IMG/VR virus record: IMGVR_UViG_3300031857_000124
Coordinates: 1 to 64,000 of that record
Reading direction: 5' to 3' (one strand)
From: a virus
Length of the DNA stretch: 64,000 nt
Shown: positions 1 through 49,357 of the stretch, piece by piece
How positions within the stretch are numbered: the stretch's first letter is position 1
Layout of the letters: each line of letters begins with the position of its first letter
Notes under the pieces: model-generated
Databases searched by the model: none
The model's input: the letters and a program-made list of their open reading frames with translations, nothing else
Told to the model about the DNA's origin: nothing
Position numbers and translations under genes: made by a program

Positions 1-1272
1 CTTGTACACCTTCATGTACGCATCGTATGATGGGCGTGTTGGGTTACTTGGTGTGCAGTCCCTCCCAAAGTAAATCTCTACAAGATCGTGGTAGAACTGT
101 TCGGCAGGCAGTTCCTCAGGAGTAAAGATGGCAACCCTCTCCCCAAACCTAACCATACGCATTATCATCTCCCACTTCATGAATGATGACTTTCCGTAGT
201 TTCCTATTCCGGAAACAATTGTTAATTCGCCTTTAACTCTTTTGAAGTGCCTATCGAGCAATGGGACGCCGACGGGCATTGCTGCTTGATAACCCTTGAG
301 GTAAATTTCCCCAGCCCTATCCATCACCTCCTCGGCATAGATTACGTCCTCCTTAGACATTTCATCGAGGTCCTCTTCGGTTAGCTCAATCTTAACCTCC
401 TTGTGGCTACTCTTTGTAACTAACTGATCCTTAGTGAACTCGGCAGTATTCCACTGGCTCATGTTCGCCCTGTACGCACTACGGATGGCCTGGCGACACT
501 CCTTCTGACTGAAGCTTGCATCAGGAACGACGTAGGTCATCATCATGCTGTAGCACGTCTCCTCGAGCATCCCGAACCTACAGCAGCTTGCGGCCAGCTT
601 AAAAACGAAGTGATTCCTTTCCCCCTCACGGAACGCATCCCCCTTGGATGTCATCCACGTCAGCAGGTTGTTGAATATCTTGTCGTCATCGTTAATCGTT
701 TCAGTGGTTGTCTGTTGGGGCAACCTTCTATCGGCCTTTTTTACAGGCAGTTTGTTGTACGTCTCGGCGTTCTCGTTGTACCAAAGATTGGGATCATACG
801 ACTCAAAGCAGAGTCGGGACAGGTTCTTTCCGGTCTTGTCAATGTCTGGAAAGTCATTCATTAAGGCCTCAAAGTGCTCTTTGTGCATGGTTTTCCATTC
901 AATTTGGACGAGCGCCTTCAATCCCTTGCCAGATGGGGAAGTCCAAACAGCTGTTATGTACCCTAAAGAGCACAGTTCTCTGCGTTTTTCGGCCATGTCT
1001 GACACGTTATCGAAGTCCAAAACAATGTACCCGGAATGTTCGACAAGTTCAGAGTCCTTTCGCTTTGAGAACGTGCCGCTGAAACAAACGGCAGGGAGTT
1101 TCTTTTTTAACTCGTCCGCCTCCTTCTTGGTTTTTGCTTGCCTCGCCTTGTTAACAAGCTCCTTTGACTTCCCATTCCTAATTCGTTCAAGTGCGCCCAA
1201 CACACTAATTGTGTGTCCCTGCAGGTCGTTGAAGTCTTGGTAGATTGATACTTTACCATCTATTGGTCTCAT
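1..1272 (-). CDS. VirE_N/BT4734-type primase-helicase, partial
   Basis: The minus frame opens with ATG at 1272 and runs off the left edge, giving 424 codons with the C-terminus missing. Residues about 60-130 carry the BT4734/VirE_N signature: SGTFS, then HSGYIVLDFDN, then WTSPSGKGLKALV. In Bacteroidota mobile elements this domain is associated with primase-like replication proteins. A second half follows with a P-loop SGIGNYGKSS (Lys about 361) and a FTPEE strand, typical of DnaB/RecA-like helicases. The likely role is a primase-helicase that unwinds and primes phage DNA at the fork. The start overlaps the end of the upstream winged-helix gene by 20 bases, so the two are co-transcribed from the attenuated promoter near 2088. 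I am confident of the two domains and less so of the biochemical activity. Confidence 0.82.
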   Translation of the reverse strand, partial: MRPIDGKVSIYQDFNDLQGHTISVLGALERIRNGKSKELVNKARQAKTKKEADELKKKLPAVCFSGTFSKRKDSELVEHSGYIVLDFDNVSDMAEKRRELCSLGYITAVWTSPSGKGLKALVQIEWKTMHKEHFEALMNDFPDIDKTGKNLSRLCFESYDPNLWYNENAETYNKLPVKKADRRLPQQTTTETINDDDKIFNNLLTWMTSKGDAFREGERNHFVFKLAASCCRFGMLEETCYSMMMTYVVPDASFSQKECRQAIRSAYRANMSQWNTAEFTKDQLVTKSSHKEVKIELTEEDLDEMSKEDVIYAEEVMDRAGEIYLKGYQAAMPVGVPLLDRHFKRVKGELTIVSGIGNYGKSSFMKWEMIMRMVRFGERVAIFTPEELPAEQFYHDLVEIYFGRDCTPSNPTRPSYDAYMKVYK

Positions 1273-1960
1273 CTGTAGTAGGTGTTTGTTTTATCGTTTG
1301 TTTTGTTTGTGTTTCATCCTCCCATCTCCTGTCGCGAAGGTATCGCACAGGATCCTTCCAGTACTTGCGTTCGCGCCCCGATTTGTGGTTCCCCATGCAC
1401 TCCACGGCAAGTATGCGATCTTTTTCATGCAGTTTGTTCCATGCAGCTTCTGCTTGTTTCTTGTCCACTTTCTTGTCGTAAGCCATCCAAAACTGCTCGA
1501 AAGAATACTTATTTTCTTCTTTTACTTTATTCTTTTTATTATGTGAGCATTCCTGAGCAGGGGTATGCTCATTTTTGAGCAGGGGGTATGCAGGTTTTTG
1601 AGCAGGGGTATGCTCAAAAAAATCATCTTCCTCATTTTCAGACACTGGTATCTCGGGGGTAACTGTTCTGCTTAAAATGTCGGCATCTGGATTTATAGTT
1701 AAACATCTAACCTCAACCTCATTTCTGGTATTGAGTTTCACAATTCTCCCCAAAACACCTTTCTGTTCGAGATCAGCAATTATCCGTCTCACACTGTGCT
1801 TGGATATCCCAAGGCATTCACCCAGATAATGATTTGAGGCAAAGCAATAGCCCCTGATGTTTGATAAATTCGAAATAACCCCTATAAGGAGTTTTTCCGT
1901 GGATGATAATTCCTTGCTAAGCAACACACTTGCAGGGATAATTGAATATTGATTGTGCAT
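1253..1960 (-). CDS. winged-helix replication initiator-like protein
   Basis: 235 residues from ATG 1960. An upstream in-frame ATG at 1990 lies inside the terminator hairpin and is not used here. Residues about 1-75 form a helix-turn-helix typical of phage replication proteins: LSSTEKLLIGVISNLS, then a YLGECLGISKHSVRRIIADL recognition region and a beta wing. The middle is acidic and low in complexity, with three imperfect HTPAQ-type repeats. The C-terminal third (FEQFWMAYDKKVDKKQAEAAWNKL) matches the basic tail common in DnaD/DnaT-like loaders. It probably recognises the origin or loads the downstream primase-helicase. Its start codon sits 13 bases after an intrinsic terminator, so expression should need antitermination. 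Confidence 0.72.
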   Translation of the reverse strand: MHNQYSIIPASVLLSKELSSTEKLLIGVISNLSNIRGYCFASNHYLGECLGISKHSVRRIIADLEQKGVLGRIVKLNTRNEVEVRCLTINPDADILSRTVTPEIPVSENEEDDFFEHTPAQKPAYPLLKNEHTPAQECSHNKKNKVKEENKYSFEQFWMAYDKKVDKKQAEAAWNKLHEKDRILAVECMGNHKSGRERKYWKDPVRYLRDRRWEDETQTKQTIKQTPTTDETNRW

Positions 1961-2088
1961 GATAAAATAAAAAAGCCCCGTGTAAGGCACCGGGGCTTGG
2001 GTTGGTCAAACTTGCGTTCAACTTGCCAAACCCTTCTTTTCGGCCTTACTCAAAAAGAAGGAATTGGCACAAATACATCGCAAAGATA
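1961..2088 (-). promoter_or_regulatory. leader RNA with kissing-loop attenuator
   Basis: Reading the minus strand, a -33 TTGACA (2110-2105) and a -7 TATCTTTG (2088-2081) predict a start near 2075. The leader then holds hairpin A: stem 2053-2061 with 2032-2040, 9 perfect pairs, 12-base loop 2041-2052. An imperfect hairpin B follows (1999-2005 with 2026-2033, one bulge), then the terminator hairpin C: stem 1991-1997 with 1974-1980, 10-base loop 1981-1990, and a T-rich run to the ATG at 1960. GTAAGGC in loop A (2049-2043) is the exact reverse complement of GCCTTAC in loop C (1988-1982), so the loops can kiss. That pairing could stabilise or disrupt termination. This is seen directly; the regulatory effect is inferred. 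Confidence 0.7.
1974..1997 (-). terminator. intrinsic terminator abutting a start codon
   Basis: Minus-strand stem AGCCCCG / CGGGGCT with loop GTGCCTTACA, followed by a T-rich run (1973-1961) broken once by A and once near the start codon. The start codon of the winged-helix gene is only 13 bases beyond the stem, so this is positioned as an attenuator rather than an end-of-operon terminator. The A-rich opposite side means it may also work on the plus strand. Confidence 0.75.
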
Positions 2089-4369: not shown

Positions 4370-6832
4370 ATGGAGTACCAATACGAGGAGGAGGATAAGT
4401 ACGTTGTTTTTCATGATGATGATCCAGACCTTGACACCATTATGATAAAGCTCCCTGTTCTTGAGCAGTGGTACACCGAGATGCTGAAGCGACCAGTTAC
4501 AAGGGAGGAGGCGCTGACCTATGTGGATGGGTATGGACTTGCCCCTGAAAAACAGAAGTTCACGCACCAGGAGATGCCCGAGAAGTTGAGGATGATTTAC
4601 GAGGTTGTGTTCAATAAAAAACACGCTGTAAACAAGGGTAAGTACAAGGAGGTGTCTGACGTAAGGTTAGAGGATATCTACGAGGAGATTGAGTCAAATC
4701 AAAAGTACTACGCATCAGAAATTGAGTGGATAAAGCTTCAGATTAAACGCAGGTACGTTGGCTACTGGTGTTTCATTAAGGGAAAACCAACTTACCTAAA
4801 CGGTGCGAACTACTTCTTCCTTAATTTTTGGCCGGTGAAAAACTTTGGGAAGAACGGAAACAGGCCAGATTACAGGGACTACCAACGAAAAATGTTCCAC
4901 TTTTTGATGTACGCGTACACGACACAAGAGGCGTTCTACAAGCACAAAGTGTCTTACAGGGAAGACGGGGTTGTTAAGACAAGGTACTCAAACAAGGACA
5001 TTAAGGATGTTATTGAGGAGGTGAAAGAGATAAACTCTGAGTACTACGCTGAGCCAAACATAAACATCACTGTTGATATGGGGAGAAGGACGGTGCATGG
5101 GACAAACTTTGTCTCTGGGAGGAGGATTGCTAAGACGGCAATATCTTGTTGTTTCTGCACGTGGGGAACACTGAACATGCCTGACCAGACATTTATCATA
5201 CAGGCAATGAATGAAGATCAGGCGGTGGATAAGATATTTGTCAAGCAGATACAAACCCCTATAAGCAAGTTGCCGTTTTTCTTCAGGCCGTACTACAGGG
5301 GTAGACTGGAGGCGAAGCAGGGGTTGAGGTTTCAGTACGAAGGTTCGGTGGCCTCTGCCGCAAGGGCTGGGATAATCCCCGAGCAAATGGAGTGCTTCAT
5401 TACACCCTTACCGTCTACAGAAAAGGCTGCGGATGGTGAGGCAGAGATTGCCTTTGTGTATCGGGATGAGCCCGCAAAAAAAACAGACGCCAAGGCAGCC
5501 GATCAAAACATACCTACGTGGTGGTACAACACCATGAAACCCGCAATAGAACGAGGACAAAACATACGAGGATTTTGCATTATGCCGTCAACCGTTGGCG
5601 ATATGGAGAGTGGTGGTGGGGCTCAGTTTTTCGATATTGCCAATGACTCTCACTTCTCTGATAGGAATGAAAACGGAACAACGGCATCCGGTCTTGTTAA
5701 CTTCTTCTTGCCTGGATACTATGCTGTTGAGGGATACATAGACGAGTACGGGGCAAGCGTTGTAGACGACCCTGATGAGCCGGTAATGTCTAATGAGGGG
5801 AAGTGGATAACAAAAGGTGCTAAAACCTATTTGCTCAACCAGGCAGAGTACTTCGAGAAAAAGAAGCAGTGGAGTAACTTGATAAAGTTGCAACAGAACT
5901 TTCCCATGACGTGGAAGCAGGCCTTTGCCGTAATCCCTAAGGACATGGGTATGCCGATTGAGAAGATGAGGGATCGAATATCTGAACTCAAGTTTTCAAA
6001 AACCCCTATAACCACACGCGTAAACTTAAAGTGGTTGGGGGAAAAGTTTGGAGGAGATGTTTTTGTTGAGAACGACCCCAAGGGCAAGTGGATAATGTCT
6101 TACCTACCCCCAATTGATCAAAGGAATTTAAGGACTGTGGTTACCGCGGAAGAGGGTTATGTGCCGCCAAAAAACAGGGGTGTGATTTATGCCCCCGATC
6201 CGTCTGTAATGAATAAATTTTTTCTTGCCTGTGACCCAGTTAAGTTCCACAGGAGGAATACTGTTGGCAAGAAAAAGTCAAACGCAGCCGCCGCAATATT
6301 TTACAAGAGGGATTCACAAGTAGATCCGGACACGAAACCCAGGTCTGAGTGGGTGTCAAGTGATTGGGTGATGATTTATAACAACCCGGTGGATGACAAA
6401 GAGGAGTACCACGAGGAGTGGTTAAAGGCCGCAATACTATTTGGGGCGTACGTTTACCCAGAGTGGCCCGATGGAGAATCTATTGTTGAGTACTTCAGGG
6501 ATAATGGGTTTGACGGCTATCTTTTGAAGGACATGGGGGCTGATGGGAAGCAGGATTCAAGACCAGGAGTTTGGGCGGGTGTTGCCGAGCAGAATGAAAT
6601 GGCAGGGGATATAATGACCTACTTCCACAACAACGCTAAGTACGTGAAAATATGGGAAATCCTTGAGGAGTGGACACAGATGAGGGGTATAGACGACCTG
6701 ACAAACCATGACCTTTGCGCGGCCACAGGTTGGTGCATGAGGGCGATAAAGAGCAGGATGCCAGACCTTTACAAGGAGGTTTACCAACCCATAGAGGTCA
6801 CGGGATCTTTTCAGTCGTTTGATGTTGACTAA
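4370..6832 (+). CDS. terL: terminase large subunit
   Basis: 820 residues; the motor-nuclease that packages DNA into the prohead. The ATPase has a variant Walker A, VSGRRIAKTA (Lys 255), the usual GRRxxK form in large terminases. Walker B is IAFVYRDEP (Asp 366, Glu 367). The RNase H-like nuclease half starts at FLACDP (Asp 622), and later acidic positions lie in DGYLLKDMGADGK and near the C-terminus in DLTNHDLCAATGW. The length is at the upper end for the family and similar to crAss-like phage terminases. The N-terminal 190 residues are an extension with a KPTYLNGANYFFLNFWPV segment seen in such long terminases. A hairpin and a promoter lie between it and the portal gene. Confidence 0.95.
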   Translation: MEYQYEEEDKYVVFHDDDPDLDTIMIKLPVLEQWYTEMLKRPVTREEALTYVDGYGLAPEKQKFTHQEMPEKLRMIYEVVFNKKHAVNKGKYKEVSDVRLEDIYEEIESNQKYYASEIEWIKLQIKRRYVGYWCFIKGKPTYLNGANYFFLNFWPVKNFGKNGNRPDYRDYQRKMFHFLMYAYTTQEAFYKHKVSYREDGVVKTRYSNKDIKDVIEEVKEINSEYYAEPNINITVDMGRRTVHGTNFVSGRRIAKTAISCCFCTWGTLNMPDQTFIIQAMNEDQAVDKIFVKQIQTPISKLPFFFRPYYRGRLEAKQGLRFQYEGSVASAARAGIIPEQMECFITPLPSTEKAADGEAEIAFVYRDEPAKKTDAKAADQNIPTWWYNTMKPAIERGQNIRGFCIMPSTVGDMESGGGAQFFDIANDSHFSDRNENGTTASGLVNFFLPGYYAVEGYIDEYGASVVDDPDEPVMSNEGKWITKGAKTYLLNQAEYFEKKKQWSNLIKLQQNFPMTWKQAFAVIPKDMGMPIEKMRDRISELKFSKTPITTRVNLKWLGEKFGGDVFVENDPKGKWIMSYLPPIDQRNLRTVVTAEEGYVPPKNRGVIYAPDPSVMNKFFLACDPVKFHRRNTVGKKKSNAAAAIFYKRDSQVDPDTKPRSEWVSSDWVMIYNNPVDDKEEYHEEWLKAAILFGAYVYPEWPDGESIVEYFRDNGFDGYLLKDMGADGKQDSRPGVWAGVAEQNEMAGDIMTYFHNNAKYVKIWEILEEWTQMRGIDDLTNHDLCAATGWCMRAIKSRMPDLYKEVYQPIEVTGSFQSFDVD

Positions 6833-42538: not shown

Positions 42539-43639
42539 ATGAACTATATTTGTTCCGTGAAACTGACATTGCAGATAAAATTGCTGCCTGATAATAAACA
42601 GGCAAATGCTCTCAAAGATACTTTGAAGGAGTGTAATACCGCCTGTAATGAAATTTCCAAACGGTGTTTTGAGAAAAAGATTTGGGGGCAATATAGAATC
42701 CATCACGAAGTTTACTATTCTGTAAAATCCTCTTTCAATCTTTCCTCTCAAATGGTTGTAAGATGTATTTCTAAGGTTGCTGACAGCTACAAGTTGGATA
42801 AGAAGGTTCAACGAATATTTAAGCAGTTTGGCAGCATTGCTTATGATAGCAGGATTCTTACCTATAAACAATCCGAAGTATCTATTTGGACTGTTGAAGG
42901 TAGATTGAAAATTCCTTTTGTTTGCCACAACCCCCAATACATTCCATACATTAAAGGCGAAGCGGATTTGGTTTACAAGAAGGGTAAATTTTACATTTTT
43001 CAAACTGTTGAAGTTCCCGAAGAAGATATAAAAGATATTGAGGAATTTATCGGTTGCGATTTTGGACAAACAGATATTTGCACTCTGTCCGATGGCACTA
43101 ATTTTAATTCTGAACAACTTAAAAAGATTCGTAAAAAATATTCTAAAGTAAGAGCTTCGGTTCAATCCAAAGGCACTAAAGGAAGCAAGAAACTTCTGAA
43201 ACGGCTTGGCGGGAGAGAACGAAGATTCGCTACAATTTCTAACCATACAGTTAGTAAACAGATAGTAGCTAAAGCCAAAGAAGAAAATAAAGGCATAGCT
43301 ATTGAGGATTTGAGTAAAATTAGATTTACCGCAAAGCCAAAAAGCAAAGCACAAAAGACAGAACTTAACCGTTGGAGCTTCTATCAGCTTCGTCGATTTC
43401 TGACATACAAAGCGTTGCTTAATGGCATTAAACTTGCGGTAATTCCACCTGCTTATACTTCTCAAACTTGCTCTGTTTGTTTGCATATTGGTAAAAGAGT
43501 AGCGAAAAAATTTACTTGTGAAAACTGCGGAAATATTTCTGATGCAGACGAAAACGCTGCTAAGAATATTTCTGCATGGGGTGTCGCTGTAAATACGCCC
43601 GAAAAGAATAATATGTTTTGCTCTCTGCATTCGTGTTAA
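42539..43639 (+). CDS. tnpB: TnpB RNA-guided nuclease
   Basis: 366 residues, a typical TnpB length. The split RuvC site is intact: Asp 174 (GCDFGQTDI), Glu 256 (GIAIEDLSK), Asp 335/337 (SDADENAAKNIS). The four-Cys zinc ribbon is present (Cys 311, 314, 327, 330). TnpB uses an omega-RNA from the right end to cut DNA matching a guide just outside the element. Here that guide would come from about 43679 onward, i.e. the end of the zincin-like gene. It is flanked by both end hairpins, lacks tnpA, and is AT-richer than the phage. Confidence 0.9.
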   Translation: MNYICSVKLTLQIKLLPDNKQANALKDTLKECNTACNEISKRCFEKKIWGQYRIHHEVYYSVKSSFNLSSQMVVRCISKVADSYKLDKKVQRIFKQFGSIAYDSRILTYKQSEVSIWTVEGRLKIPFVCHNPQYIPYIKGEADLVYKKGKFYIFQTVEVPEEDIKDIEEFIGCDFGQTDICTLSDGTNFNSEQLKKIRKKYSKVRASVQSKGTKGSKKLLKRLGGRERRFATISNHTVSKQIVAKAKEENKGIAIEDLSKIRFTAKPKSKAQKTELNRWSFYQLRRFLTYKALLNGIKLAVIPPAYTSQTCSVCLHIGKRVAKKFTCENCGNISDADENAAKNISAWGVAVNTPEKNNMFCSLHSC

Positions 43640-47877: not shown

Positions 47878-47987
47878 TACATTTGCTGCGTTCTCACATT
47901 GCAGTGTTTGACGGCAGTGCAATGCGGGATGTAAGATCAAAATCTTACCCTGAAATGCCCTTGGTCCGTCAAACAAGGGCTTTTTTT
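47878..47987 (+). promoter_or_regulatory. leader RNA with kissing-loop attenuator
   Basis: TACATTTG (47878-47885) predicts a start near 47891. Hairpin A: CATTGCA (47897-47903) with TGCAATG (47918-47924), 14-base loop. Hairpin B: GTAAGAT (47931-47937) with ATCTTAC (47942-47948), loop CAAA. Hairpin C, the terminator: GCCCTTG (47957-47963) with CAAGGGC (47974-47980), 10-base loop, then T7 and ATG at 47988. TTTGACGG in loop A (47907-47914) and CCGTCAAA in loop C (47966-47973) are perfect reverse complements, 8 pairs. The architecture matches the leader at 1961-2088 although the sequences differ. Confidence 0.72.
47957..47987 (+). terminator. attenuator terminator abutting ATG 47988
   Basis: Seven-pair GC-rich stem with a 10-base loop and T7; the start codon follows the T run with no spacer. 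Ribosome binding and terminator folding must be mutually exclusive here. Confidence 0.82.
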
Positions 47988-48707
47988 ATGCCTAAGCGCA
48001 CAGAAATATCAAGTATAATCTCAAGCGACACACTGTTTTCGAACGTAGAAAACATAAAGTGGCTTGAGAGGTTCGTTGAGTTCAAGCGGGCATTCCCAAA
48101 CTCCGTGATATATAAATACTCTGCCTACCGAGTTGAAAAACTTGGGAGGTTAAAAATGTCACGTAACACAATCAAGAACACGATAGACAAGTTCATCGAG
48201 CTTGGTTGGGCAACAAAGAATAAATCTCACCTCATTTTAATATCTAAAAACAAATTGTCTGCGCTCTATGGGGCAAAATCTCATAGAAAAATCAAATTAG
48301 ACACAACCCTATCCGTTAAGATTCAATTACAAGCAAAGGTGTTTAGCAGAGCCATCAATCGCTCTCGCTATGGTAAGTGCATGCAGGAAGTACAAGGTAA
48401 AAGCATCAGGCGTAAATACGCTAAATCACTCAGTGGCACTCCGCAGGAACTTTCTAGCAAAAAGATTGGGAAAATTTTTAACTCATCACAAACTCAAGCT
48501 CTAAGGGTGGTAAGAAGTCTGGAGAACAATGGGTGGATCACTGTACAACGGCAAAAACTCAAACATTTGGGTAAGTGTTCAGCCAAGCAGTGGCAGTTCA
48601 GAAAGGCGTGGTGGAACAAGAAGGAAAGTGTCGACAACTGCTTTTGGCATTTGGGGCATTTCTTCCATCTTCCATCTAATTCTTACCTCATGAATAGCAT
48701 ACCCTAA
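47988..48707 (+). CDS. two-HTH regulator or replication protein
   Basis: 239 residues from ATG 47988; the frame extends upstream to 47883 only through the leader hairpins. First wHTH (residues about 40-85): KMSRNTIKNTIDKFIELGWA with LILISKNKL as the wing. Second (about 150-195): PQELSSKKIGKIFNSSQTQA, VVRSLENNGWITV. The linker is basic (RYGKCMQEVQGKSIRRKYAK). Two winged helices resemble plasmid Rep proteins and phage regulators. It is the only plus-strand gene in this stretch, isolated between minus operons and controlled by a structured leader, fitting a master regulator or initiator. Confidence 0.65.
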   Translation: MPKRTEISSIISSDTLFSNVENIKWLERFVEFKRAFPNSVIYKYSAYRVEKLGRLKMSRNTIKNTIDKFIELGWATKNKSHLILISKNKLSALYGAKSHRKIKLDTTLSVKIQLQAKVFSRAINRSRYGKCMQEVQGKSIRRKYAKSLSGTPQELSSKKIGKIFNSSQTQALRVVRSLENNGWITVQRQKLKHLGKCSAKQWQFRKAWWNKKESVDNCFWHLGHFFHLPSNSYLMNSIP

Positions 48708-48757
48708 AGATGCTAGAATTCCTAACCATTTTTTGACCAAGCAAAAAAAATCATCAA

Positions 48758-49357
48758 TCAAATAAGGCTCATTTTACTGAGGTAATCACACTCCTCATTC
48801 ATTTCCCTTGGAATCCATTCTATTTCAATGTTTGAGAACGCCCCAAACATTTTCTTACACTCTAAGCCGTAGGGCAGGTACAGTCCGTTTGCCCCGAACC
48901 CCCACACCCCATTCATTTGATTGACAACTAGGCTGGAGTCCCCCCTGACAAGTATGTTGTGGTCAGAGAAACTGTTATCCATAAGCCAGCACAGGGCATC
49001 GTAGAGGGCTATGTACTCTGCTGTGTTGGCTGAGTTTTTTGTGCTGGCCTGCTGTCTTCCTGAGGATTGGTGTATCCACCTCCCCCCTTGTTCGACATAA
49101 AACCCCCACCCCATCTGCCCGTATGGGTTGACTGGTTCGCAGCATCCGTCAAAGTACACTATTAGGTCGCGATTAAAGTGTTTAAACGTCTCCGACTCTA
49201 CCTCCGCCCAGTAGCGCTCGTAGTAGGCGGATACGGCAGGGTACTGACCCCCCTCCCACGTTTCTTTAATCCACCATGCGGGGGTGTCTATCATTCTTTT
49301 ACCCTTGTGTACCCCGAACGGGAAGGTGTCGCTGTGTTTTGCATTTTTGTTAGTCAT
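48758..49357 (-). CDS. RNase HI with N-terminal DUF3820-like domain
   Basis: 199 residues. RNase H core: Asp 70 (LIVYFDGCCEP), Glu 114 (ANTAEYIALYDAL), Asp 140 (LVRGDSSLVVNQMNG), Asp 191 (EECDYLSKM), the full catalytic set. Residues 10-50 (FPFGVHKGKRMIDTPAWWIK) resemble the DUF3820/exonuclease-X C-terminal domain, FGxxKGxxxxxxPxxYL. It removes RNA primers or R-loops in phage replication. The first codon overlaps the neighbour (ATGA). Confidence 0.88.
   Translation of the reverse strand: MTNKNAKHSDTFPFGVHKGKRMIDTPAWWIKETWEGGQYPAVSAYYERYWAEVESETFKHFNRDLIVYFDGCCEPVNPYGQMGWGFYVEQGGRWIHQSSGRQQASTKNSANTAEYIALYDALCWLMDNSFSDHNILVRGDSSLVVNQMNGVWGFGANGLYLPYGLECKKMFGAFSNIEIEWIPREMNEECDYLSKMSLI

Follow-up and report, generated by a model that had tools for sequence, protein, structure and literature searches.

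This locus raises the question of whether a short segment of a phage genome, in which the loop of a hairpin is the exact complement of the loop of a nearby intrinsic terminator, is a functional RNA and, if so, what the loop pairing serves. The window, i.e. the whole stretch of DNA analysed here, takes up 64 kb out of a virus record of 68.5 kb (68,495 bases) and carries two such segments. They are referred to below as element B and leader A, and their relatives as families B and A.

Organization of the two elements and chance level

Element B lies on the plus strand and is composed of the following parts, listed with the gene that follows it.

47878..47885, plus strand: -7 promoter box TACATTTG (Bacteroidota TAnnTTTG type), read from the sequence and found at the same place in B relatives
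47892..47929, plus strand: hairpin A, stem CATTGCA/TGCAATG with outer TCTC/GGGA, from the fold; stem nearly invariant in 13 relatives
47907..47914, plus strand: loop A TTTGACGG, the recognition loop, exact complement of 47966-47973 and covarying in relatives
47931..47948, plus strand: middle hairpin GTAAGAT-CAAA-ATCTTAC, inside the 27-nt linker, from the fold
47957..47980, plus strand: intrinsic terminator hairpin, from the sequence and the detector described below
47966..47973, plus strand: recognition bases of the terminator loop, CCGTCAAA, complement of loop A
47981..47987, plus strand: T7 run of the terminator, from the sequence and the detector
47988..48707, plus strand: gene P0001 (239 aa, weak winged-helix matches), starting with the ATG at 47988, directly after the T7 run

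The promoter box and three hairpins described in the initial annotation could be read as stated from the sequence. Its 8-base perfect complement between 47907-47914 and 47966-47973 was exact to the base, and the T7 run indeed led directly into the ATG at 47988. The terminator displayed a 10-nt loop (47964-47973), and the 8-nt loop-loop complement grows to 10 nt (TGTTTGACGG) if closing pairs open. As a minor correction, the -33 box of the window copy was weak; a TTGAC box was clear in most other B copies, upstream of a -7 box placed as in the window. Folding of the window copy gave -37.5 kcal/mol (z = -4.67) and none of 200 shuffles was as good. In the B stem (e.g. 47902-47918 in the window), the recognition loop was found between direct repeats CAGTG...CAGTG, and nearly all B copies displayed a conserved G-G mismatch just under this loop.

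Leader A occupies the minus strand (1960-2088, folding z = -4.92), upstream of a replication initiator gene.

2081..2088, minus strand: -7 box TATCTTTG, with TTGACA at 2110-2105, from the sequence
2024..2069, minus strand: hairpin A, with loop GTAAGGC at 2049-2043, from sequence, fold and detector
1973..1998, minus strand: terminator, whose 10-nt loop (1990-1981) holds GCCTTAC (1988-1982), from sequence and detector
1253..1960, minus strand: replication initiator P0002, start ATG at 1960 (phrog_270 6e-30, HTH_36 3e-10)

The detector searched for a hairpin followed by an intrinsic terminator with a loop complementary to the hairpin loop, and was run at 6 nt or more. At 7 nt or more, B and leader A alone were found in the window, two further matches being 6-nt ones. 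In sixty dinucleotide shuffles, elements of at least 7 nt arose at a rate of 0.03 per 64 kb and those of at least 8 nt did not arise, so that the earlier argument that two instances were unlikely by chance was borne out. On 3.0 Mb of related loci (both strands summed), the detector returned members of families A and B, plus a single chance match. A match on the minus strand of locus L018 (CGAAAACA, spacing 47 nt) was judged to be chance, and weak covariance matches on reverse strands were discarded as palindrome echoes of the same elements.

Relatives of leader A and element B

Relatives of P0002 in viral contigs had a similarly built leader immediately ahead of their start codon; no relative was recorded in 84,980 cellular genomes. 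The family A alignment used for covariation (A3) comprised 38 distinct sequences and seven loop-loop pairs. All 266 loop-loop cells were Watson-Crick, with 38 double changes and no single one, and pairing fell to 29-56% in slid controls where the partner was moved by 1-3 columns. Flanking stems also covaried. Since many of their changes passed through G-U intermediates (e.g. CG:20 UG:18), this fits a function of the stems at the RNA level. Four loop types were observed: GAGCAAC, GAACCAC, GAGTCAC and, in the window, GTAAGGC.

About 18 different B elements were uncovered by pattern and covariance searches; they displayed 11 loop pairs, whose loops were TTTGACGG, TCTGACGG, TTTGGCGG, TCTGGTAG, TCTGGTACC, TCTGGTACG, GCTGGCACC, TGTGAGAG, TCTGGCTGG, TTGGAGAG and TGTAGAGAG. 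Each of the 11 was complementary to its own terminator loop (TTTGGCGG through one U-G pair). The stem was almost invariant among the first 13 elements: the loop helix represented 9 of the 27 pairs and held four of the six pairs with double changes, the stems being nearly fixed. Stems were changed in L188, L198 and L199/L200 (wholly different in the last two), with the layout kept. Near-complete relatives carried one A each, and several also one B (G008, G009, G012, G015, G016, G030, G033 and G036, as well as G010 with a diverged B); in four of those carrying A, B was not detectable.

Outside these phages, no Rfam 15 family matched the window at gathering scores or five related loci at E<=1. 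Blastn with leader B returned no phage match; with leader A, searched against phages and plasmids, the sole match was a 24-nt stretch shared between a plasmid and the A terminator. Three matches of the B-stem pattern in cellular genomes lay inside unrelated contigs and were taken as chance. The cultured relatives identified through the terminase (Flavobacterium elemoA, Maribacter Panino and MW202828, first 50 kb each) contained no such element, a single weak match being rejected for its 126-nt gap and T-poor tail.

Both families displayed the same layout. Median lengths in A and B were 17 and 15 bp for hairpin A, 27 and 27.5 nt for the linker (8 and 8.5 nt of it unpaired) and 10 and 7 bp for the terminator stem. 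A middle hairpin was present in the linker of 33 of 35 A and 16 of 18 B elements, with different sequences. The view of B as a second element with the architecture of A and unrelated sequence was therefore supported, the medians agreeing while no sequence was common to A and B. Loop complementarity between A and B types never exceeded 6 nt, which offers no sign of cross-talk. As judged from sequence comparisons, the same design is apparently built twice without common sequence in one phage group. The initial annotation had also proposed a reusable design, naming a joint lack of covariation and of other examples as evidence against it; covariation and further examples of both families, all with the same layout, were found. 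That both elements are genuine, conserved RNAs with paired loops is nearly certain.

Genomic setting of the two families

In family A and window B, an intrinsic terminator stands between promoter and start codon with no possible other promoter, and the start codon follows the beginning of the T-run by 7-15 nt (14 nt for the ATG of P0002 at 1960). Since this leaves no room for a promoter in family A, the initiator would need terminator read-through for its expression.

Two side observations concern the A loci. Most family A relatives (e.g. L010, around 4860-4895) displayed a palindrome between the -33 (TTGAC) and -7 (TATGTTTG) boxes. It is operator-like, e.g. ACAACC-TCGCGT-GGTTGT, and absent from the window's own leader A; control by a protein repressor on top of the RNA element is possible. 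Many initiator relatives (L026, L029, L076, L091 and others) matched only from residue ~144 on. From these alignments, the N-terminal DNA-binding part seems to have been replaced while leader and C-terminus were kept, as in a modular swap of origin recognition.

The setting of B is different. In most B contigs, no conserved plus-strand gene was found after the terminator, and the end of a minus-strand gene followed. B thus appeared as a plus-strand RNA gene in a gap among minus-strand early genes (neighbours of 144, 331 and 179 aa). The 331-aa neighbour corresponds to a window protein with Cas4-like exonuclease matches, and the surroundings consist of early recombination genes. Judged by its kept promoter and terminator, B is, in most relatives, a predicted stand-alone RNA gene of ~95 nt. 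As most of these phages have no gene behind it, the terminated RNA is its likely product.

The initial annotation had described both elements as leaders of winged-helix genes. This held for A, which precedes a clear initiator, and only partly for B, since the winged-helix matches of P0001 were weak (MarR 7e-5, phrog_270 0.0013); its AlphaFold model (pLDDT 36) was unusable. P0001 occurred directly after B only in the near-identical lineage of the window and in L005, with an RNase H gene adjoining. The arrangement as leader before a winged-helix gene is therefore local and does not define the role of B, and the general designation of B as a leader was not supported: most relatives have no gene past the terminator and the RNA runs opposite to the early genes. 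Window B looks like a small RNA gene that was later used as a leader, or that merely stands before a gene.

Together, P0001 and the RNase H gene (48758-49357, minus strand) resemble a block (47988-49357) inserted between B and the minus-strand early genes; the window lineage and L005 have it, and the other B phages do not. In L120, L198 and L200, whose loop types differ, B was followed by a second kind of sequence (ATGTACTACGGTCTTAAAAGTGTTTCACCCGTTCC...).

Loop specificity and loop change

The match between own loops spanned 7-10 nt in A and 8-10 nt in B, except for L134 with an uninterrupted 6 nt plus G-U. Most cross-type pairs matched over 3-6 nt, the exception being related TCTGGTA- types (8-10). 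Energies of own duplexes were -12.2 (A) and -15.0 (B), against -4.2 and -6.1 for cross duplexes. By sequence comparison, loop-loop complementarity was thus type-specific.

Loop types were also exchanged on otherwise constant elements. L090 and L095 shared the same leader scaffold (tree alignment) and initiator C-terminus and differed by two compensated loop pairs. Between window B and L005, whose proteins were 92% identical, the inner stem was kept and most of the loop had changed. On the initiator tree, loop type required 15 changes, versus 14.9 with shuffled labels, and was no better predicted. It followed the leader scaffold instead, with about five switches on the scaffold tree, which derives from a short alignment of low resolution. 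These comparisons indicate that the loops change faster than their surroundings.

Proposed mechanism and alternatives

Our main reading, to which we attach a probability of roughly 0.4, is a homotypic loop-loop RNA switch in which the terminated RNA would pair with nascent copies and tune read-through of the terminator. Hairpin A and the intrinsic terminator would serve as the two recognition hairpins of the ~95-nt RNA, and the linker between them would contain a small hairpin acting as a spacer. As long as copies are few, the nascent loop A would pair with the RNA's own emerging terminator loop, thereby delaying the terminator hairpin and allowing read-through. As terminated copies accumulate, they would occupy nascent loops in trans and termination would prevail. 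In family A, the RNA would thus signal how many of its own genomes the cell contains and limit expression of the replication gene; in B, the output would be the self-pairing RNA. Relatives with different loop pairs would be deaf to each other upon co-infection, as with new plasmid incompatibility groups.

This switch, with a kiss in cis that delays the terminator and an RNA in trans that frees it, was proposed because energies are similar (kissing duplex -11 to -19, terminator stem -11 to -15) and because the cis kiss appears easy before the 3' arm of the terminator is made. Once all hairpins are folded, it would span ~31 stacked bp with ~8 unpaired nt plus a hairpin, and by this rough estimate it looks strained. 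The components of the proposal differ in strength. That recognition of self in trans is the point of the loops stands slightly short of an even chance, judging from the loop comparisons. It is favoured since a contact acting in cis alone has no reason to diversify and a self-specific contact does. The complete picture of a self-antisense RNA, whose loop pair would be a fast-changing tag that counts its own genomes, ignores relatives and switches the initiator's terminator, in a design built twice, is more tentative. Control of read-through by pairing in the proposed direction is doubtful, this direction being a guess from geometry and energies, and the opposite sign is possible. Should the trans model hold, these phages would offer a compact family of at least 15 orthogonal loop pairs for copy sensing and terminator control, and phage-phage discrimination in a co-infected cell would be testable with natural loop types on one scaffold.

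A contact confined to one molecule, the compact fold setting a constant terminator efficiency (leaky or strengthened) or protecting the RNA, would need nothing more than what the compensatory changes display, since a purely cis tertiary contact gives them too. Both partners do lie on one RNA at constant spacing, and loop types are few (four) in family A. Yet such a contact is unlikely, given that loops change and switch repeatedly on the same scaffold (L090/L095, window B/L005) and that the linker seems short for the stacked length with three hairpins folded. An attenuator reading, for its part, does not explain stand-alone B because no regulated gene is known there. A small RNA with two exposed loops could also act in trans as an antisense on host or phage mRNAs, its self-complementarity keeping it inactive until a target opens it. 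The loop-A octamer occurred once elsewhere in the window and its complement three times (raw counts), but fixed targets would keep the loops constant, contrary to their rapid change, and this role is rather improbable.

The two remaining explanations have less in their favour. B as a stand-alone RNA with two complementary loops recalls the self-assembling pRNA of phi29, the loops joining copies into dimers or rings for packaging or another particle. This is improbable: one of the loops belongs to an intrinsic terminator, A immediately precedes a replication gene, B is surrounded by early recombination genes, and B was not detected in some near-complete relatives. The strong palindromes of A and B, the former next to the replication initiator, might instead be cruciform or hairpin signals acting on DNA in replication or recombination, with an incidental transcript. 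However, the limits of the element coincide exactly with a promoter and an intrinsic terminator, the stem variation through G-U intermediates reported above fits RNA, and the strand of A is fixed relative to the initiator gene, making a DNA-level function very improbable.

Comparison with known systems

In plasmids, copy control and incompatibility provide known cases of RNA recognition through loop pairs whose specificities can be exchanged. As sequence comparison suggests for A and B, recognition in these plasmid systems (ColE1 RNAI/RNAII, IncFII CopA/CopT, pIP501 RNAIII and pT181) involves hairpin loops that carry the specificity. Expression of the replication initiator is controlled, sometimes by induced termination, as proposed here for A. 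In those systems, however, transcription of the opposite strand yields an antisense RNA with complementarity along its entire length. In A and B, one RNA from one strand carries both loops, complementary over 7-10 nt, and one of them is the terminator's own. A target leader before a replication initiator, as expected of plasmid-type antisense copy control, is found in family A but not in most B copies. New incompatibility groups arise in plasmids when the recognition loops of their antisense RNAs mutate (PMC4485353). In pMV158 RNAII, a short RNA, the terminator hairpin is the antisense hairpin as well (PMC4485353); yet, unlike A and B, it has a single hairpin, recognition proceeds via the 5' tail and kissing is not critical.

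Among phage RNAs, the P4 CI RNA pairs with leader sequences and terminates transcription of replication genes (PMC4825925), and complementarity between noncoding RNA and leader was described in P1, P7, N15 and P4 (PMC7567579). Such CI or C4-type RNAs would resemble A and B by their small size, pairing with a leader of the replication region and premature termination. P4 CI is, however, a lysogenic immunity RNA processed from the leader, whereas A and B end at their own intrinsic terminator, had no Rfam match and occurred where no tyrosine integrase or HTH_3 repressor was found. In phi29 pRNA, copies are joined by contacts between 45AACC48 and 82GGUU85, which lie on separate hairpins (PMC7357161). 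Like B, it is a phage RNA with two different complementary hairpin loops, but it is part of a packaging motor, makes 4-bp contacts and involves neither a terminator loop nor a gene leader; no Rfam match to a described pRNA family was found in the window or five related loci. By analogy, the mode of action of A and B may be closest to that of P4 CI RNA and of loop-loop control in plasmids. They would fit neither definition fully, because a single RNA bears both loops and no lysogeny genes were detected. The open-access literature yielded no account of a comparable element, and one may exist elsewhere. The loop-loop pairing described here occurs in phages without detected lysogeny genes, with both partners on one RNA and use of the terminator loop.

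Hosts, lifestyle and genome record

The closest matches of the terminase, at 23-26%, came from phages of Flavobacterium, Cellulophaga, Tenacibaculum and Maribacter, and the promoters are of the Bacteroidota type. The phages are apparently virulent, and their hosts are presumably Bacteroidota. Neither PF00589 (tyrosine integrase) nor PF01381 (HTH_3 repressor) was detected in any of 14 near-complete records, which makes classical lysogenic immunity unlikely, and copy counting or superinfection sensing during lytic infection likelier.

Leader A was observed at both ends of the record (around 67590 in the full record G000 and at 1998 in the window), with an offset of ~65.6 kb. The record therefore probably overlaps itself, for a genome of about 65.6 kb. 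An IS-type transposase gene (42539-43639, plus strand, phrog_506 2e-44) was also found in the window, inside the phage genome.
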